A stretch of 64,000 bases of DNA. Origin: Erythrobacter sp. (lineage in GTDB: Bacteria > Pseudomonadota > Alphaproteobacteria > Sphingomonadales > Sphingomonadaceae). The position numbers were made by a program, and so were the translations under genes. Below are positions 6,827 to 15,628 of the stretch, in pieces. The notes under the pieces were generated by a model. It did not search any database. It saw only the letters and a list, made by a program, of their open reading frames with translations, and had not been told where the DNA came from. The DNA lies in assembly GCA_030148605.1 (NCBI GenBank), contig JASBTD010000055.1, positions 1-64,000 of the forward strand. Direction: 5' to 3'. Each line of letters starts with the position of its first letter. Position 1 is the first letter of the stretch.

Positions 6827-7966
6827 ATGGCGAAGAAGTTTCTCTACATAATCGCCGCGCTGATCCTGCTGTTCCTGGCAGCCCTGCTCGTCTTGCGCGT
6901 TTGGGCGCAGGAACTGACAGCGCTGGCGCTGGTGCCATCGGCTGAATTCACCGAGCAAGAGACTTTGGCAGACAATGCCTATTCCGATCCCGCGATGTGG
7001 TATGCGCACCCGCAAATGGCTGGCGATAATCCGGCGCGCTGGCAGCCGGATTTTGCCAGCGACAGGGGCTTGCTCCCGACGCCTGCAGACCCCTCGCCGC
7101 CTGACTTTGCGGTCTTCTTCATTCATCCGACCAGCTATCTTAGTCGGTCGAGCTGGAACGCCGAGCTAGGCAATGAGGATGCCGAAGATCTCGCGCGGCT
7201 ATATGTGCAGGCCATGGCCAGCCCCTTCAATCGGGCGAGCGAAATCTGGGCACCGCGCTATCGCCAGGCGACCATGGGCGCATTCCTGACTGACGGGATT
7301 GAAGGACAATTGGCATTCGACACCGCCTATCGGGATGTGGCGCTGGCTTTTGATCATTTCATTCAAAGCATCGACCCGGAAATGCCGATAGTACTGGCGG
7401 GGCATAGCCAAGGATCACTTCACTTGATCACTTTGCTCCACGAGCGGGTTGCCGATAAGGATCTGGCTGACAGAATTGCTGGCGCCTATGTTGTCGGCTG
7501 GCCGATATCCGAAACGCATGACTTGCCGTATATGGGGCTTGCTGCGTGCAACGCGCCTGACCAGCCCGGATGCATCCAGAGCTGGGCCAGCTACGCTGAA
7601 CCTGCAGATCCATCGCAGGTAGCGCAGTATTACAGTGAATCGGTCGGCCTCGACGGGAAAGCACGGGGCGAAAGCCCGATTCTCTGCACAAACCCGCTAA
7701 CCGGCGCGCGCGGAGGCGAGGCGCCTGCCAGTGCCAATCTGGGCACGCTGGTCCCCGATGAAAGCCTGTCCAACGGGTCGCTGGTTCCCGGAATGGTCCC
7801 GGCTCGTTGTGAAGCGCGCGGGATATTGTTGATCGGCGATCCGCCCGAGATGGGGCGCTATGTCCTCCCGGGCAATGACTACCACGTCTATGACATCCCG
7901 CTTTTTTGGGCGAATGTGCAGGCCGATGTCATGCGCCGGGTTGAAGCATGGGCTGCGCGTTCTTGA
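6827..7966 (+). CDS. DUF3089 alpha/beta-hydrolase-like protein
   Basis: A 379-residue protein of the DUF3089 family, which has an alpha/beta-hydrolase-like fold but no established substrate. From ATG 6827 a membrane anchor or signal helix spans about residues 4-24. A conserved FFIHPTSYL strand follows near residue 95. The nucleophile elbow GHSQGS is near residue 195, and the C-terminal acid/His region contains GNDYHVYDIPLFW. The frame is open upstream to 6770, but that part overlaps lepB. It follows lepB by 5 bp and overlaps the start of ruvX by 19 bp. An esterase or lipase role is plausible but unproven. Confidence 0.8.
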   Translation: MAKKFLYIIAALILLFLAALLVLRVWAQELTALALVPSAEFTEQETLADNAYSDPAMWYAHPQMAGDNPARWQPDFASDRGLLPTPADPSPPDFAVFFIHPTSYLSRSSWNAELGNEDAEDLARLYVQAMASPFNRASEIWAPRYRQATMGAFLTDGIEGQLAFDTAYRDVALAFDHFIQSIDPEMPIVLAGHSQGSLHLITLLHERVADKDLADRIAGAYVVGWPISETHDLPYMGLAACNAPDQPGCIQSWASYAEPADPSQVAQYYSESVGLDGKARGESPILCTNPLTGARGGEAPASANLGTLVPDESLSNGSLVPGMVPARCEARGILLIGDPPEMGRYVLPGNDYHVYDIPLFWANVQADVMRRVEAWAARS

Positions 7967-8433
7967 TCACCGATAGCGCGAGCGAATTGCGCAACATTTT
8001 GCCCGACGGCGGTGCCCTGCTCGGTCTCGATCTTGGCACCAAGACCATCGGCATCGCGACCAGCGATGCAGGCTGGCGTTTCGCAACTGCGGGCAAGACG
8101 CTGGCTCGCGGAAAATTCGGGCGTGATCGCGAAGCACTTGCTGCAATGATCAAGGAGCGGGGCGTCAAAGCCATCGTAATCGGCCTGCCGCGCAATATGG
8201 ACGGCAGCGAAGGGCCACGTGCTCAGGCGAGCCGAGCCTATGCCCGCAATCTTTCACAGGCGTTCGAATTACCTGTTCTGCTTTGGGATGAGCGTTGGTC
8301 AACTCAAAGCGCGGAAAGCGCCATGATCGGGCAGGACATGAGCCGCGCCAAACGTGCCGAAAGGATCGACAGCCACGCCGCCGCCGTGATCCTGCAAGGT
8401 GCGCTCGATGCGCTTGCAGGGAACGCGTTTTAG
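7948..8433 (+). CDS. ruvX: YqgF/RuvX family RNase H-fold nuclease
   Basis: Member of the YqgF family, which processes pre-16S rRNA and is also annotated as a putative Holliday-junction resolvase. The 161-residue protein has the RNase H-fold acidic residues in LGLDLGTKTIGIATSD, in the LLWDERWST strand and in DSHAAAVILQ near the C terminus. The motif GLPRNMDGSEGPRAQ is characteristic. ATG 7948 overlaps the previous gene by 19 bp. TTG 7963 (LITDSASEL) would give a shorter protein with less overlap. Last gene of the rightward operon; it overlaps the convergent cupin gene by 4 bp. Confidence 0.9.
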   Translation: MGCAFLITDSASELRNILPDGGALLGLDLGTKTIGIATSDAGWRFATAGKTLARGKFGRDREALAAMIKERGVKAIVIGLPRNMDGSEGPRAQASRAYARNLSQAFELPVLLWDERWSTQSAESAMIGQDMSRAKRAERIDSHAAAVILQGALDALAGNAF

Positions 8434-9332
8434 GCCAGTTCCAACGCCTTGCGATAGCGCATCGCAGTAGCTTGCAGCATTCGGCTGCCCGACAATTCCG
8501 CCTCGCGCCACAAGGCATCGCGCGCAGCCTCATTCCCAAGTTTCAATGATCGCGCTTCATAGCTTGCAAGGCGAAGCCGGTCGCTCGGATGGGTCTTGCC
8601 GAAAGTCTCTGCCAAATCCTGTGCTTCGCTAAGGCCGGTCGCGACCGCCACCCGCAGGAATACCTCGGTGGAGTTCGGGCTCAGCACCCTGTCGATCGAG
8701 CCTTTATTCAGGTCAAACGCATATTGATCGAACCAGTGCTGGCTTGGATCGACATGCATAACATTCAGCGAGACAGAGAGGCTCTCCGGCGGGATCTGGC
8801 TGTGAATGTCCTGATGCGCGCGGTAAAGCATCAGCTTGCCTTCATGCAGCGCGCTGCGTTCAACAAAGCGCAAATCTGGCTGCTCGCCTGGAAAGCCAGC
8901 TACCGCCGCATAGTCATATTCGTAGTAATCGCTGCGATAACCCGGTCCAAGGTATCCGCTCGTCAGGAACGAGAAGTTATGATCATGCGGCACGCCATAG
9001 ACGAAGGTTTTCGCGCCGCTGGCATGGAAGCAATGATCACGCTCAGATGGCCAGATATTGGCGCGCAAGAAGGTGTTGCTGTGCTGACCGCTCAGCACGA
9101 TCGCTTGCGGGCCATAGCCGCTGTCAATCGGGTCAGCGCGGTCATGATGTTTGAGTCGATCAATCAGCATGTCGCCGAGAAAATCACGATTGTTGGTCAA
9201 TTTGCGCAATGCCAGCGCACATCGGTTGGTCGACTCTTCCGAAGCGGGATCAAAGCCTGACTGCGTGATCTCCTCAAGGCACTCCTCAAGGCTGAATACT
9301 TCAGCGCTTTCAGCAGCGATTACATTGGGCAT
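8430..9332 (-). CDS. Cupin-like protein with intact His/Glu metal site, possible peptide-modifying oxygenase
   Basis: I do not recognise a named family. The 300-residue protein has a helical N terminus (1-80) and a cupin-like beta core. Motif 1 carries H116-D-H118 and E138 (GVPHDHNFSF, then DYYEYDY). Motif 2 carries H173 and N190 (RAHQDIHSQI, SLNVM). This spacing is what a three-His/one-Glu Fe(II) cupin would show. A helical C terminus (222-300) resembles the C terminus of the gene directly upstream, although that partner lacks the metal ligands. It is the last gene of a three-gene leftward unit beginning with a 52-residue peptide, and it overlaps its partner by 13 bp. A metal-dependent oxygenase acting on the peptide is inference. 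Confidence 0.6.
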   Translation of the reverse strand: MPNVIAAESAEVFSLEECLEEITQSGFDPASEESTNRCALALRKLTNNRDFLGDMLIDRLKHHDRADPIDSGYGPQAIVLSGQHSNTFLRANIWPSERDHCFHASGAKTFVYGVPHDHNFSFLTSGYLGPGYRSDYYEYDYAAVAGFPGEQPDLRFVERSALHEGKLMLYRAHQDIHSQIPPESLSVSLNVMHVDPSQHWFDQYAFDLNKGSIDRVLSPNSTEVFLRVAVATGLSEAQDLAETFGKTHPSDRLRLASYEARSLKLGNEAARDALWREAELSGSRMLQATAMRYRKALELA

Positions 9333-10300
9333 GGCTGTTGCTCCGCCCGTATATCATTTGCCAGCTGCGGGTATGCGCTCTTAAGTTGGCTTTCCAATTC
9401 GAGCGCTTGGCGCAGGAGTGGATCGTCCCTGTCTTGAGCAATCTTTTCAAGCAGCCGCATGCCCTCGAGCGTATCGAGCGCCAAGGTGTGCCGCACGGCT
9501 TCCCAACGCCTGTGTTCAGGACCGCTGCGACCGAGATCTGCAATAGCTTGCGCAGCATCGGTGCGGTCCATCGCGCTCAAAACCGCCATCGCCATTTCCT
9601 GCTGGCTGACCCGTTTGTCTCCGCTTGACTGCATCAGCAGCTTGCCTGTTCCCAGCGCATATTCGCGCGTGAGGCCGGGACGCTCTGGCGCCCGGATGAG
9701 CTGTAGCACCAACAGGGTCTGCTCAACTTCAAGCACTTGCCGGGTTTCATTAGCCCCGGAGAGGAGGATACGGCTACCGCTCGACCACTCGTGAAACTCG
9801 CTATTGAGCTCCGCGCCTTGGCGCGCTTCAGAGTGAATGCGATGCACTACGCCTTCCGCCGCGCCGGCCAACACAATCTCATGCTGCTCGACATCGGTAA
9901 AAAGAGCGCTGCGTGGCTTGAGCGGACTTTCCCGAGGTTCATAAACAGCTAGCGAAATCGCCGCGCCCGCACATGTTGCAAGCTGCAGGCTTGAGAAACT
10001 CTCTGATCGATTTTGCCGCATCGGCATGAGCGCCAATGGATTGGCCGCAAGACAGCGCGTGAAATGTGCGGTCCAGCCTTCGACCCACGTCAAAGCGATG
10101 CTGTGGTCACTTACAAGCGGCGACAAACGTTCAAGCTCACCCAGTGCCTTGCCCTCACCATAGGCTTCAAGATCGTGCAGGATCGCTGCAACCGGCGGGT
10201 GTTCGCGCCATTCGGAATGCGCCGCATCCACGGCGACCTGCAGCTGGCGCTGCGAAACCGGATCGTTCCGCAGCGCCGCGATTCTTGGATCGATGTACAT
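9320..10300 (-). CDS. Degenerate cupin-like paralogue, predicted non-metal partner
   Basis: A 326-residue protein of unknown function. By eye its last 150 residues follow the same pattern as the downstream cupin protein. GSRILLSGANETRQVL (175-190) lines up with GKLMLYRAHQDIHSQI. QEMAMAVLSAMDRTDAAQAI lines up with EVFLRVAVATGLSEAQDL. PEHRRWEAVRHTLAL lines up with PSDRLRLASYEARSL. The metal-binding His pair is absent (VYEPRES where the partner has VPHDHNF), so it is probably not a metalloenzyme. No signal peptide or membrane helix is evident. It starts 13 bp after the peptide stop, behind an AGGG-type ribosome site, and overlaps the next gene by 13 bp. A substrate-binding or scaffold subunit is a guess. 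Confidence 0.55.
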   Translation of the reverse strand: MYIDPRIAALRNDPVSQRQLQVAVDAAHSEWREHPPVAAILHDLEAYGEGKALGELERLSPLVSDHSIALTWVEGWTAHFTRCLAANPLALMPMRQNRSESFSSLQLATCAGAAISLAVYEPRESPLKPRSALFTDVEQHEIVLAGAAEGVVHRIHSEARQGAELNSEFHEWSSGSRILLSGANETRQVLEVEQTLLVLQLIRAPERPGLTREYALGTGKLLMQSSGDKRVSQQEMAMAVLSAMDRTDAAQAIADLGRSGPEHRRWEAVRHTLALDTLEGMRLLEKIAQDRDDPLLRQALELESQLKSAYPQLANDIRAEQQPCPM

Positions 10301-10313
10301 CGCCGGCCCTTGA

Positions 10314-10472
10314 TCACACCAGCGCGGAAGGCGGGACCGTTTCGTAGATATAGACCATGATCGCTACGACCCGGTCGCCATTCGTCGCTGCGTCGGTTGC
10401 CACGCTGCCAAAAACACCGGTCGCCGTATCGAGGCCGGGGATGCTGGCAGGATCAATTTTCGGAATGTTCAT
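10314..10472 (-). CDS. 52-residue peptide, candidate substrate of the cupin pair
   Basis: A short gene of 52 residues starting MNIPKIDPASIPGLDTATGV and ending YIYETVPPSALV. GGAG sits 7 nt upstream of ATG 10472, an ideal ribosome site that selects this start; the open frame to 10586 lacks one. The peptide has no Cys, no signal peptide and no long hydrophobic helix. A short hydrophobic patch with two Tyr (VVAIMVYIYETVPP) lies near the C terminus. It is first in a leftward unit with two cupin-like genes, 13 bp apart. This layout resembles a ribosomally made peptide with its modifying enzymes, but no known leader motif, transporter or protease is visible, so that reading is speculative. It could equally be a small structural subunit. 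Confidence 0.6.
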   Translation of the reverse strand: MNIPKIDPASIPGLDTATGVFGSVATDAATNGDRVVAIMVYIYETVPPSALV

Positions 10473-10539
10473 AATTGCGCTCCATTGCTCCGCACCCGTC
10501 CCGATTGACGAGCGCCGAGCGAATGGTGGCGCAGCTTTG

Positions 10540-13699: not shown

Positions 13700-14692
13700 T
13701 CAGACAGCCTTGGCTGCGCTAGACGGCAGGTCTTCATCAAACACGCGCTGGTAATATTCGCTAACCAGCGTCTGTTCGGCTTCGTCACACTTGTTGAGAA
13801 AGCTTAAGCGGAACGCAAAACCGACTGAATTGAAAATCTCCGCATTCTGCGCCCAGGTCATCACTGTACGCGGGCTCATGACAGTCGAAATATCGCCATT
13901 CATGAAGCCTTGCCGCGTCAGATCGGCCACCTTGACCATATTGGCGATGGTCGCATCATCGGTGGTGGGGCTCTTGGTCTTGACGATCTTCTCTTCGACT
14001 TCAGGTTCAAGATAGTTGAGCGCGACCACGATATTCCAGCGGTCCATCTGCGCCTGGTTGATCGCCTGCGTGCCGTGATAGAGCCCGCTGGTATCACCCA
14101 GGCCGACAGTATTGGTCGTCGCGAACAAGCGGAAGAACTTGTTGGGAACAATCACCTTGTTCTGGTCAAGCAAGGTCAGCGCGCCTTGCGCTTCCAGCAC
14201 GCGCTGGATCACGAACATCACATCAGGCCGTCCAGCATCATATTCGTCAAATGTCAGCGCGACAGCATGCTGCAACGCCCACGGCAGGATGCCTTCCTTG
14301 AACTCGGTCACCTGCAAACCATCGCGCAGCACAATCGCATCGCGCCCGACCAGATCGATCCGGCTGATATGCGCATCGAGGTTCACGCGAACGCTTGGCC
14401 ATTTGAGCCGTGCGGCAACCTGTTCGATATGTGTCGACTTACCCGTACCGTGATAACCCTGCACCATCACCCGCCGGTTGTGCGCAAAGCCCGCCAGAAT
14501 CGCCAGCGTCGTTTCCGGGTCGAAAACGTAATCCGGATCGATCTCTGGCACGCGCTCGTCTGCCAGGCTGAAGGCAGGCACTTGCCAATCGATATCGATA
14601 CCGAACGTGTCACGCACGTCGATTGTAATGTCGGGCTCCGGAAACAGGGTCTTGCCTGTTCCGTCGTACTCGGTTTCCATCAAGCTAACCAT
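13700..14692 (-). CDS. cobS: CobS-type AAA+ ATPase (cobaltochelatase subunit)
   Basis: AAA+ ATPase that, with CobN and CobT, inserts cobalt in aerobic cobalamin synthesis. The 330-residue length is normal. Visible motifs are Walker [16 protein letters not shown], Walker [17 protein letters not shown] and the sensor stretch [11 protein letters not shown]. It opens with family-typical [24 protein letters not shown] sequence. In many alphaproteobacteria cobT follows directly; here PBP does, and no cobT, cobN or other cobalamin gene lies in the window. The protein could serve another VWA partner. Start ATG 14692; a second Met is four codons in. Confidence 0.88.
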
Positions 14693-14782
14693 CGAGCGAA
14701 CGCCTATACGGCTGCGTCCAGACCTGCAAGCACTGTGCAGCCAACAATTTCATTAGTCCGCAACAAGCTGTATTGTGGACAC

Positions 14783-15628
14783 ATGTCGCGAAATGACCCC
14801 ATCGAAAGACTGCGCCTTGGGCTGGTGGAGCGCGTGCGCGGCGTCTTCAACGACACCGCGCAAGGCGAACGACCGACCCCGCCATCTGACCAGGCTCTGT
14901 TCGAGAAAGACACGCCGATTCGCATGGTGCATGCCGATATCGTGGGCATGATGGTGGGCGGCATTCGCGCGCTCCTGTTGCAAATGCTTCACCCCGATGC
15001 CTTGCAAGGCGTGCTCGACCATTCGAATTTCCGTGAGGATATGCATGGCCGCTTGCGTCGCACTGCCAAGTTCATCGCTGTCACAACTTTCGCGCATCGC
15101 GACGAAGCAACCAAAGCGATCGAGCGTGTGAATCGCATCCATTCGAAGGTGAGCGGGACTCTGCCCGATGGCACGCCCTATTCCGCAACCAATCCGTGCA
15201 CGTTGGCGTGGGTGCATGTAACGGAGGCTTCCAGCTTCCTTGCCGGATATTTGCGCCATGTCCGGCCCGACATGCCCGGATACGAGCAAGACGAATATTA
15301 TCGCCAGTTTGCCGTGATTGCGCGAGCATTAGGCGCGGATCCCGTGCCGACCAACCGCAATGAAGCCGAGGAACTGTTTCGCGAATTGCGCGGCGATTTG
15401 CGCTCGTCACCTGAAGCGCGCGAAGTGGCGCGACTGGTGCTGAGCCAGCGCGCGGCAGGAACCCCGCCGGGCCTGCAAGCCATGCTGGGCGCTGACGCGG
15501 TCGAGATGCTGCCGCCCTTTGCGCGCACCATGCTGGGCCTGACACGTCCCGGCATTGCAGCATTTCCCGCGCGCGCAGCAACCTGGGGCATGGGCAAGAC
15601 GCTGCGCTGGGCGTTCAGGCAGTCTTGA
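14783..15628 (+). CDS. MpaB/rubber-oxygenase-type DUF2236 protein
   Basis: A 281-residue member of the DUF2236 family, which includes latex-clearing protein and fungal MpaB. Members bind heme b and oxidise isoprenoid or other substrates. Helical motifs seen are LLQMLHPDALQGVLDHSNF (the HPxxxxGV box), TTFAHRDEATKAIERVNRIH and NPCTLAWVHVTEASSF. No signal peptide is present, so it is probably cytoplasmic. The reading frame extends upstream across cobS, but ATG 14783, in the 90-bp divergent gap, is where family similarity begins. Substrate unknown. Confidence 0.82.
   Translation: MSRNDPIERLRLGLVERVRGVFNDTAQGERPTPPSDQALFEKDTPIRMVHADIVGMMVGGIRALLLQMLHPDALQGVLDHSNFREDMHGRLRRTAKFIAVTTFAHRDEATKAIERVNRIHSKVSGTLPDGTPYSATNPCTLAWVHVTEASSFLAGYLRHVRPDMPGYEQDEYYRQFAVIARALGADPVPTNRNEAEELFRELRGDLRSSPEAREVARLVLSQRAAGTPPGLQAMLGADAVEMLPPFARTMLGLTRPGIAAFPARAATWGMGKTLRWAFRQS

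Follow-up and report, generated by a model that had tools for sequence, protein, structure and literature searches.

Among described systems, the clusters for ribosomally synthesized and post-translationally modified peptides (RiPPs) that combine an oxidative enzyme with a partner, represented by the MNIO PbsC with PbsD and by the cupin-like PbsQ, are, in the part of the report available, the nearest concept to the locus described here (PMC12257519). This locus lies in Erythrobacter sp. (contig JASBTD010000055.1 of assembly GCA_030148605.1, positions 1 to 64 000; the whole stretch of 64 000 nucleotides is termed the window) and consists of three adjacent genes, A, B and C, encoding a short peptide and two predicted cupins. 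On balance it is probably a RiPP-like unit, in which C, partnered by B, would oxidise the leader-bearing peptide A. As in the PbsC/PbsD clusters, insofar as the accessible text describes them, a short peptide gene with a leader-like half is found together with an oxidative metalloenzyme (here predicted) and a partner protein. In contrast to those clusters, no dedicated protease or exporter was recognised in the window, and whereas PbsQ appears in that text as a JmjC-related cupin-like hydroxylase, the A-B-C unit encodes a predicted thiol-dioxygenase-fold pair known from genes alone.

Enzymes with the thiol-dioxygenase fold have established roles in sulphur metabolism and in the sensing of O2. 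C differs from the enzymes of this group (mercaptosuccinate, 3-mercaptopropionate and cysteine dioxygenases; ADO/PCO) in having no detectable sequence similarity to them, in its extra helical C-terminus, and in the two genes beside its own, one for a fold relative that has diverged and one for a peptide mostly devoid of Cys. Metal-dependent modification of peptides by enzymes other than the B-C type is represented by BURP-domain cyclases and biaryl-linked RiPPs; an aromatic-x-aromatic pattern recalling the latter is present in most close-clade A cores, but is missing from several divergent cores. In the titles and abstract beginnings of the open literature, no description of the A-B-C unit was present among the matches listed.

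C is single-copy in its genome, matches 3699 clustered proteins (E ≤ 0.001) and is present in 74 of 199 genomes of the window's family. In wider samples it was found in 99 of 296 genomes of the order (two of the 99 being C-tail scars only) and in three of 289 genomes of the class, all within the window's family, and in 10 of 299 genomes of the phylum, nine within that family and one, G806, outside. A matches 63 of the 199 family genomes (E ≤ 0.01) and B 69, and 62 of the 63 A-positive genomes also match C. Twelve C-positive family genomes gave no match to A; of these, six were inspected (G023, G027, G028, G044, G057 and G155), and in all six a peptide-sized open reading frame (ORF) occupies the slot. 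The order A-B-C is kept in all 30 of the best close loci, with the 13 bp overlap of B and C exact in 21 of them under automatic start choice, and all three genes are present, in the same order, in 78 of the best 80 of 394 named relatives, the remaining two loci (L091 and L158) being cut by a contig end. A peptide-sized ORF, chosen by eye among several candidates per locus, also lies upstream of B in 20/20 divergent Sphingomonadaceae loci, of which the A profile matches 13 (E ≤ 0.01) and the B profile 18 (E ≤ 0.001). No relatives were found among 26 pattern matches in viral contigs. The A-B-C layout is not a product of chance, and the proposal of the initial annotation that the three genes form a recurrent accessory unit is upheld. 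The unit is patchy in occurrence and in some genomes reduced to remnants.

The unit is dispensable. At the ruvX-adjacent site, L176 and L177 retain only the last 33–37 residues of C, and an internal deletion in L175 has left A, roughly 25 codons from the start of B, and the C tail. The G162 unit is broken within B, and 39 kb separate its two parts (L178 and L179). At the ruvX-adjacent site G018 retains the peptide ORF alone (L174:4256-4550), with a degenerated leader and the DDRIVILMAYVYE core kept, and there is no match to B or C in the genome.

The A gene shows a dN/dS ratio (non-synonymous to synonymous substitution) of 0.15 overall (49 close pairs, 94 unique close-clade genes; two peptides were left out by a length limit). 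By segment, the ratio is 0.10 for residues 2–23 and 0.24 for residues 24–31, and the values for the two C-terminal segments are given in Table 1. P12 and G22 are invariant in the 94 close-clade peptides, D33, M39 and Y43 are each kept in 92/94, and two blocks are constrained, (I/L)DxxxxPxLxxxxGxFGS and DDxIVxIMV(Y/F)xY(E/D). An LPxL motif is present in all 94 close peptides and in 14 of the 20 divergent ones (it is absent from L066, L070, L073, L074, L076 and L077). In the divergent peptides, hydrophobic stretches of different sequence, such as VGGPLCLGVVVAVLLAL or PSVFEIAVTIALIIHD, mostly take the place of the second block. Across clades A behaves as a leader plus core, in that LPxL is kept and the C-terminal half is changed; the earlier statement that no leader motif is present gives way, on comparison of relatives, to a conserved leader-like segment.

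The expectation that the peptide varies with its partners is borne out by partial Mantel tests in the 28 of 80 loci with all five genes called. Given the two neighbouring thioesterases, A correlates with C (r = 0.61, 0/500 shuffles) and with B (r = 0.52, 0/500 shuffles); the correlation of A with a thioesterase given B and C is r = 0.01 (225/500 shuffles). The co-variation of A, B and C could also stem from a history of the unit that differs from that of its neighbours.

C is predicted to have a thiol-dioxygenase-type cupin fold, a fold that by itself does not imply function. Among the 50 matches listed for the predicted model, 46 are named thiol, cysteine or cysteamine dioxygenases or plant cysteine oxidases, and the other four are YubC (one) and ergothioneine dioxygenase (three). 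Searches of Pfam and NCBIfam gave no match above cut-off for A, B or C of the window, and PDB sequence searches returned no thiol dioxygenase among their matches. It is solely the predicted fold and the His site that point to thiol dioxygenases, with no membership detected by sequence. The three His residues, H116, H118 and H177, are invariant in 32/32 rows of alignment A4, which includes 13 of the 30 close rows, and in 23/23 rows of A5, which includes three; L075, with Arg at position 177, was left out of both, and L077 and L080 also out of A5. As judged by residue conservation, they constitute a candidate site resembling the metal site of the thiol dioxygenase family. According to the available part of the source, that family has a Ser-His-Tyr motif close to the metal site (PMC10966181); in C, conservation in A4 shows S186 to be invariant and S188 and N190 nearly so. 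Public records give the name 'transposase' to some relatives of C (P0009, P0020, P0123, P0140, P0150 and P0169), several of the 120 C matches listed included, which is probably a propagated misannotation. The label was rejected for C, which is single-copy and has a predicted oxygenase fold.

B likewise has a predicted thiol-dioxygenase-like cupin fold. No metal ligands are kept family-wide, in a comparison of 17 chosen B proteins that, at 28 % mean identity, may be misaligned, and B is probably a pseudo-enzyme. The metal-dependent oxygenase suggested by the initial annotation is supported for C, where three conserved His residues are set in a cupin fold predicted to be of the metal-oxygenase type; B probably does not fill this role. 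The two proteins had also been described as related cupins. Predicted fold supports this relation; sequence does not, as hhalign of alignments A1 and A2 gave a probability of 0.3 %, so that B and C are not detectable as sequence relatives. The rows dropped were L005 from A1 and L014 and L019 from A2, with B split or badly called.

In the RiPP-like reading, A would be a ribosomally made precursor peptide, and we infer a B-C complex that would bind its conserved N-terminal leader-like half. C would then oxidise residues in the C-terminal hydrophobic half through the three-His metal site, probably with Fe(II) and O2 and without 2-oxoglutarate, and B would be a substrate-binding or scaffolding partner. 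The target in the close lineage may be the conserved second block of A, D-D-x-(I/V)-V-x-I-M-V-(Y/F)-x-Y-(E/D). Leader removal and export of the putative product, if any, would depend on genes elsewhere in the genome.

The unit is recurrent in sphingomonads, with relatives in a few gammaproteobacteria. On the Alteromonas stellipolaris plasmid CP013927.1, a Yip1-domain gene, HlyD, a MacB-type ABC gene, two short ORFs, B, C and a second ABC exporter run in one direction, so that exporters lie alongside the unit. C of this plasmid has 41.6 % identity to C of the window over 87 %. Pfam HEAT repeats were matched by the plasmid's B at 36.7 bits, above cut-off, and by its C at 23.3, below. The two short ORFs (38 and 41 aa) have a ribosome-site-like sequence and are missing from the plasmid's gene table. 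They are two different peptide ORFs in tandem between the ABC exporter and B (L168:8621-8961). Protein relatives of the Alteromonas C are named in Pseudoalteromonas, Luteimonas, Lysobacter/Novilysobacter and Stenotrophomonas. In G806 a 40-aa ORF with AAGGAG is followed by B and C, and an RND pump, which may be unrelated, lies ahead. In G1132, B and C are preceded by a Cupin_8 gene; a 50-aa ORF with a GAGGAGG site, ending GFGCIDSE, lies on the opposite strand between this gene and B (L173:8150-8302, minus). On a Vibrio plasmid B and C are shortened and a 59-aa ORF lies downstream. Gammaproteobacterial relatives are rare in the genome samples: 2/284 in the class of G806, and 1/15 and 1/16 in two families, all of them G806 and G1132 themselves.

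Several observations weigh against a RiPP-like unit. The retention of the peptide alone in G018 (one draft, 85 % complete) counts against a strict need of A for B and C, and is the one case found of a peptide homologue lacking the cupin genes, which the initial annotation had named as an argument against a modification system. The peptides mostly lack the substrate usual for this fold, because Cys occurs in one of the 94 close peptides and in the C-terminal half of eight of the 20 divergent ones, and no single target residue is common to all peptides. Sulphur as a universal target was rejected, as the C-terminal half is free of both Cys and Met in eight of the 20 divergent peptides. Close-clade B keeps E141 and, in at least 90 %, H140 and H223, with Met at position 223 in the window's B, so that B may have a metal site. 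There is no exporter in the window, and tblastn with the Alteromonas exporter queries found HlyD, MacB-permease and ABC-2-permease relatives in 0/100 fetched flanks of Sphingomonadaceae-type loci (an ABC ATPase lies 3–6 kb away in three); the link to export hence rests on one plasmid. The initial annotation's remark that neither transporter nor protease lies nearby survives for exporters; as to proteases in the window, a signal peptidase (PF10502, 5886-6821) does lie 1.6 kb from C, amid housekeeping-type genes. Finally, constraint on the close-clade core is close to that on the leader (0.12 versus 0.10), unlike a fast-evolving core.

This strong conservation of the core is also what would be expected if A were a permanent, unmodified small subunit or activator of a B-C complex that oxidises a small molecule, for example a thiol. 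Such a subunit is the main, though improbable, rival explanation: co-variation fits subunits too, small-molecule thiol dioxygenases are the nearest relatives of the predicted C fold, and no Alteromonas-type exporter lies near the unit in 100 loci. It accounts poorly for a C-terminal half of A that is rebuilt from clade to clade with the site in C retained, and for the two unlike peptide ORFs that exporters flank on the Alteromonas plasmid.

The flanking of two peptide ORFs, B and C by ABC exporters on that plasmid may instead suggest a bacteriocin-like or toxic peptide that B and C mature or disarm, or to which they give immunity. Short hydrophobic C-terminal halves and the patchy, at times decayed, occurrence of the unit would suit this explanation. 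We nevertheless regard it as unlikely: the window has no exporter, most close-clade loci share one chromosomal neighbourhood, PADLOC gave no match for B or C, and G018 retains the peptide without B and C. It is very improbable that C is an ADO/PCO-type O2 sensor, switching the stability or activity of A by oxidising it, given that A has no N-terminal Cys and that any Cys is found in just one of the close peptides. A regulatory leader ORF, for which translation and not the product matters, is suggested by the short ORF 13 nt upstream of B and is already disfavoured, to the point of being barely credible, by the overall dN/dS of A and by P12 and G22.

If the RiPP-like reading is correct, the thiol-dioxygenase fold would also serve peptide maturation, the partner of the maturation enzyme would be a divergent fold relative, and the substrate would mostly lack thiols. 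A more tentative proposal, which we consider possible and rather doubtful, is a class of peptide modification whose defining feature is a pair of different thiol-dioxygenase-fold proteins with HEAT-like tails. One of the two, a three-His metal enzyme with no need of 2-oxoglutarate, would act on a peptide that bears a leader and oxidise residues other than thiols (Met, Tyr or aliphatic). Such a class would have thousands of unrecognised database relatives, some named 'transposase'. The label RiPP is itself premature, because the modification of A is inferred. With its 3699 clustered C matches, the family is large; above cut-off, its only match to Pfam or NCBIfam models is that of HEAT repeats in the Alteromonas B. 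Testing three small genes would open many loci, since the family is large, unmodelled and in part labelled 'transposase'.

Table 1. Features of the A-B-C unit in the window
Feature	Position	Strand	Basis
Gene A, 52-aa peptide, candidate precursor	10314..10472	-	ORF; homologues in close loci; dN/dS
Leader-like segment of A, residues 1–31 (2–23 conserved; 24–31 variable linker)	10380..10472	-	P12, G22; dN/dS
Core-like segment of A, residues 32–45, GDRVVAIMVYIYET	10338..10379	-	dN/dS 0.12; differs in distant clades
Variable tail of A, residues 46–52	10317..10337	-	dN/dS 0.31
Ribosome-binding site GGAG, 7 nt 5' of the ATG of A	10480..10483	-	Sequence
Gene B, 326 aa, predicted thiol-dioxygenase-like cupin, helical C-terminus, candidate partner	9320..10300	-	
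Gene C, 300 aa, predicted thiol-dioxygenase-like cupin with helical C-terminus, candidate metal oxygenase	8430..9332	-	
C His116, candidate metal ligand	8985..8987	-	Invariant in alignments A4, A5
C His118, candidate metal ligand	8979..8981	-	Invariant in alignments A4, A5
C His177, candidate metal ligand	8802..8804	-	Invariant in alignments A4, A5; Arg in L075

The three-gene layout was reproduced from the sequence in its coordinates, the 13 nt spacer between A and B (10301-10313), the 13 bp overlap between B and C and the GGAG site (Table 1); A begins with the ATG at 10472 and extends, stop codon included, to 10314. A promoter and terminator scan found nothing. C overlaps the convergent ruvX (7948-8433; PF03652, 141 bits) by 4 bp, and past ruvX lie a DUF3089 gene, the signal peptidase, an ACPS-family gene and pdxJ. 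Upstream of the unit are two divergent PF03061 thioesterase-superfamily genes, followed by a penicillin-binding protein. Among the 80 named loci, in which neighbours were called by a longest-ORF heuristic and most clusters are unannotated, 66 have the thioesterase cluster and 67 that of the ruvX region; we read these, beside most close-clade units, as one shared chromosomal site. A dedicated neighbour gene was rejected, as the sites of the divergent loci differ and a thioesterase-cluster frame is present in 5/20, two apparently antisense.

In L067, a short ORF beginning MRELTSAEIAMVSGGNGDIVV, a start reminiscent of double-glycine bacteriocin leaders, lies downstream of C, about 2.75 kb from its end. 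Elsewhere in the window, a 572-aa open frame is present at 13910-15628, the C-terminal part of which matches the MPAB/rubber-oxygenase domain (PF09995).
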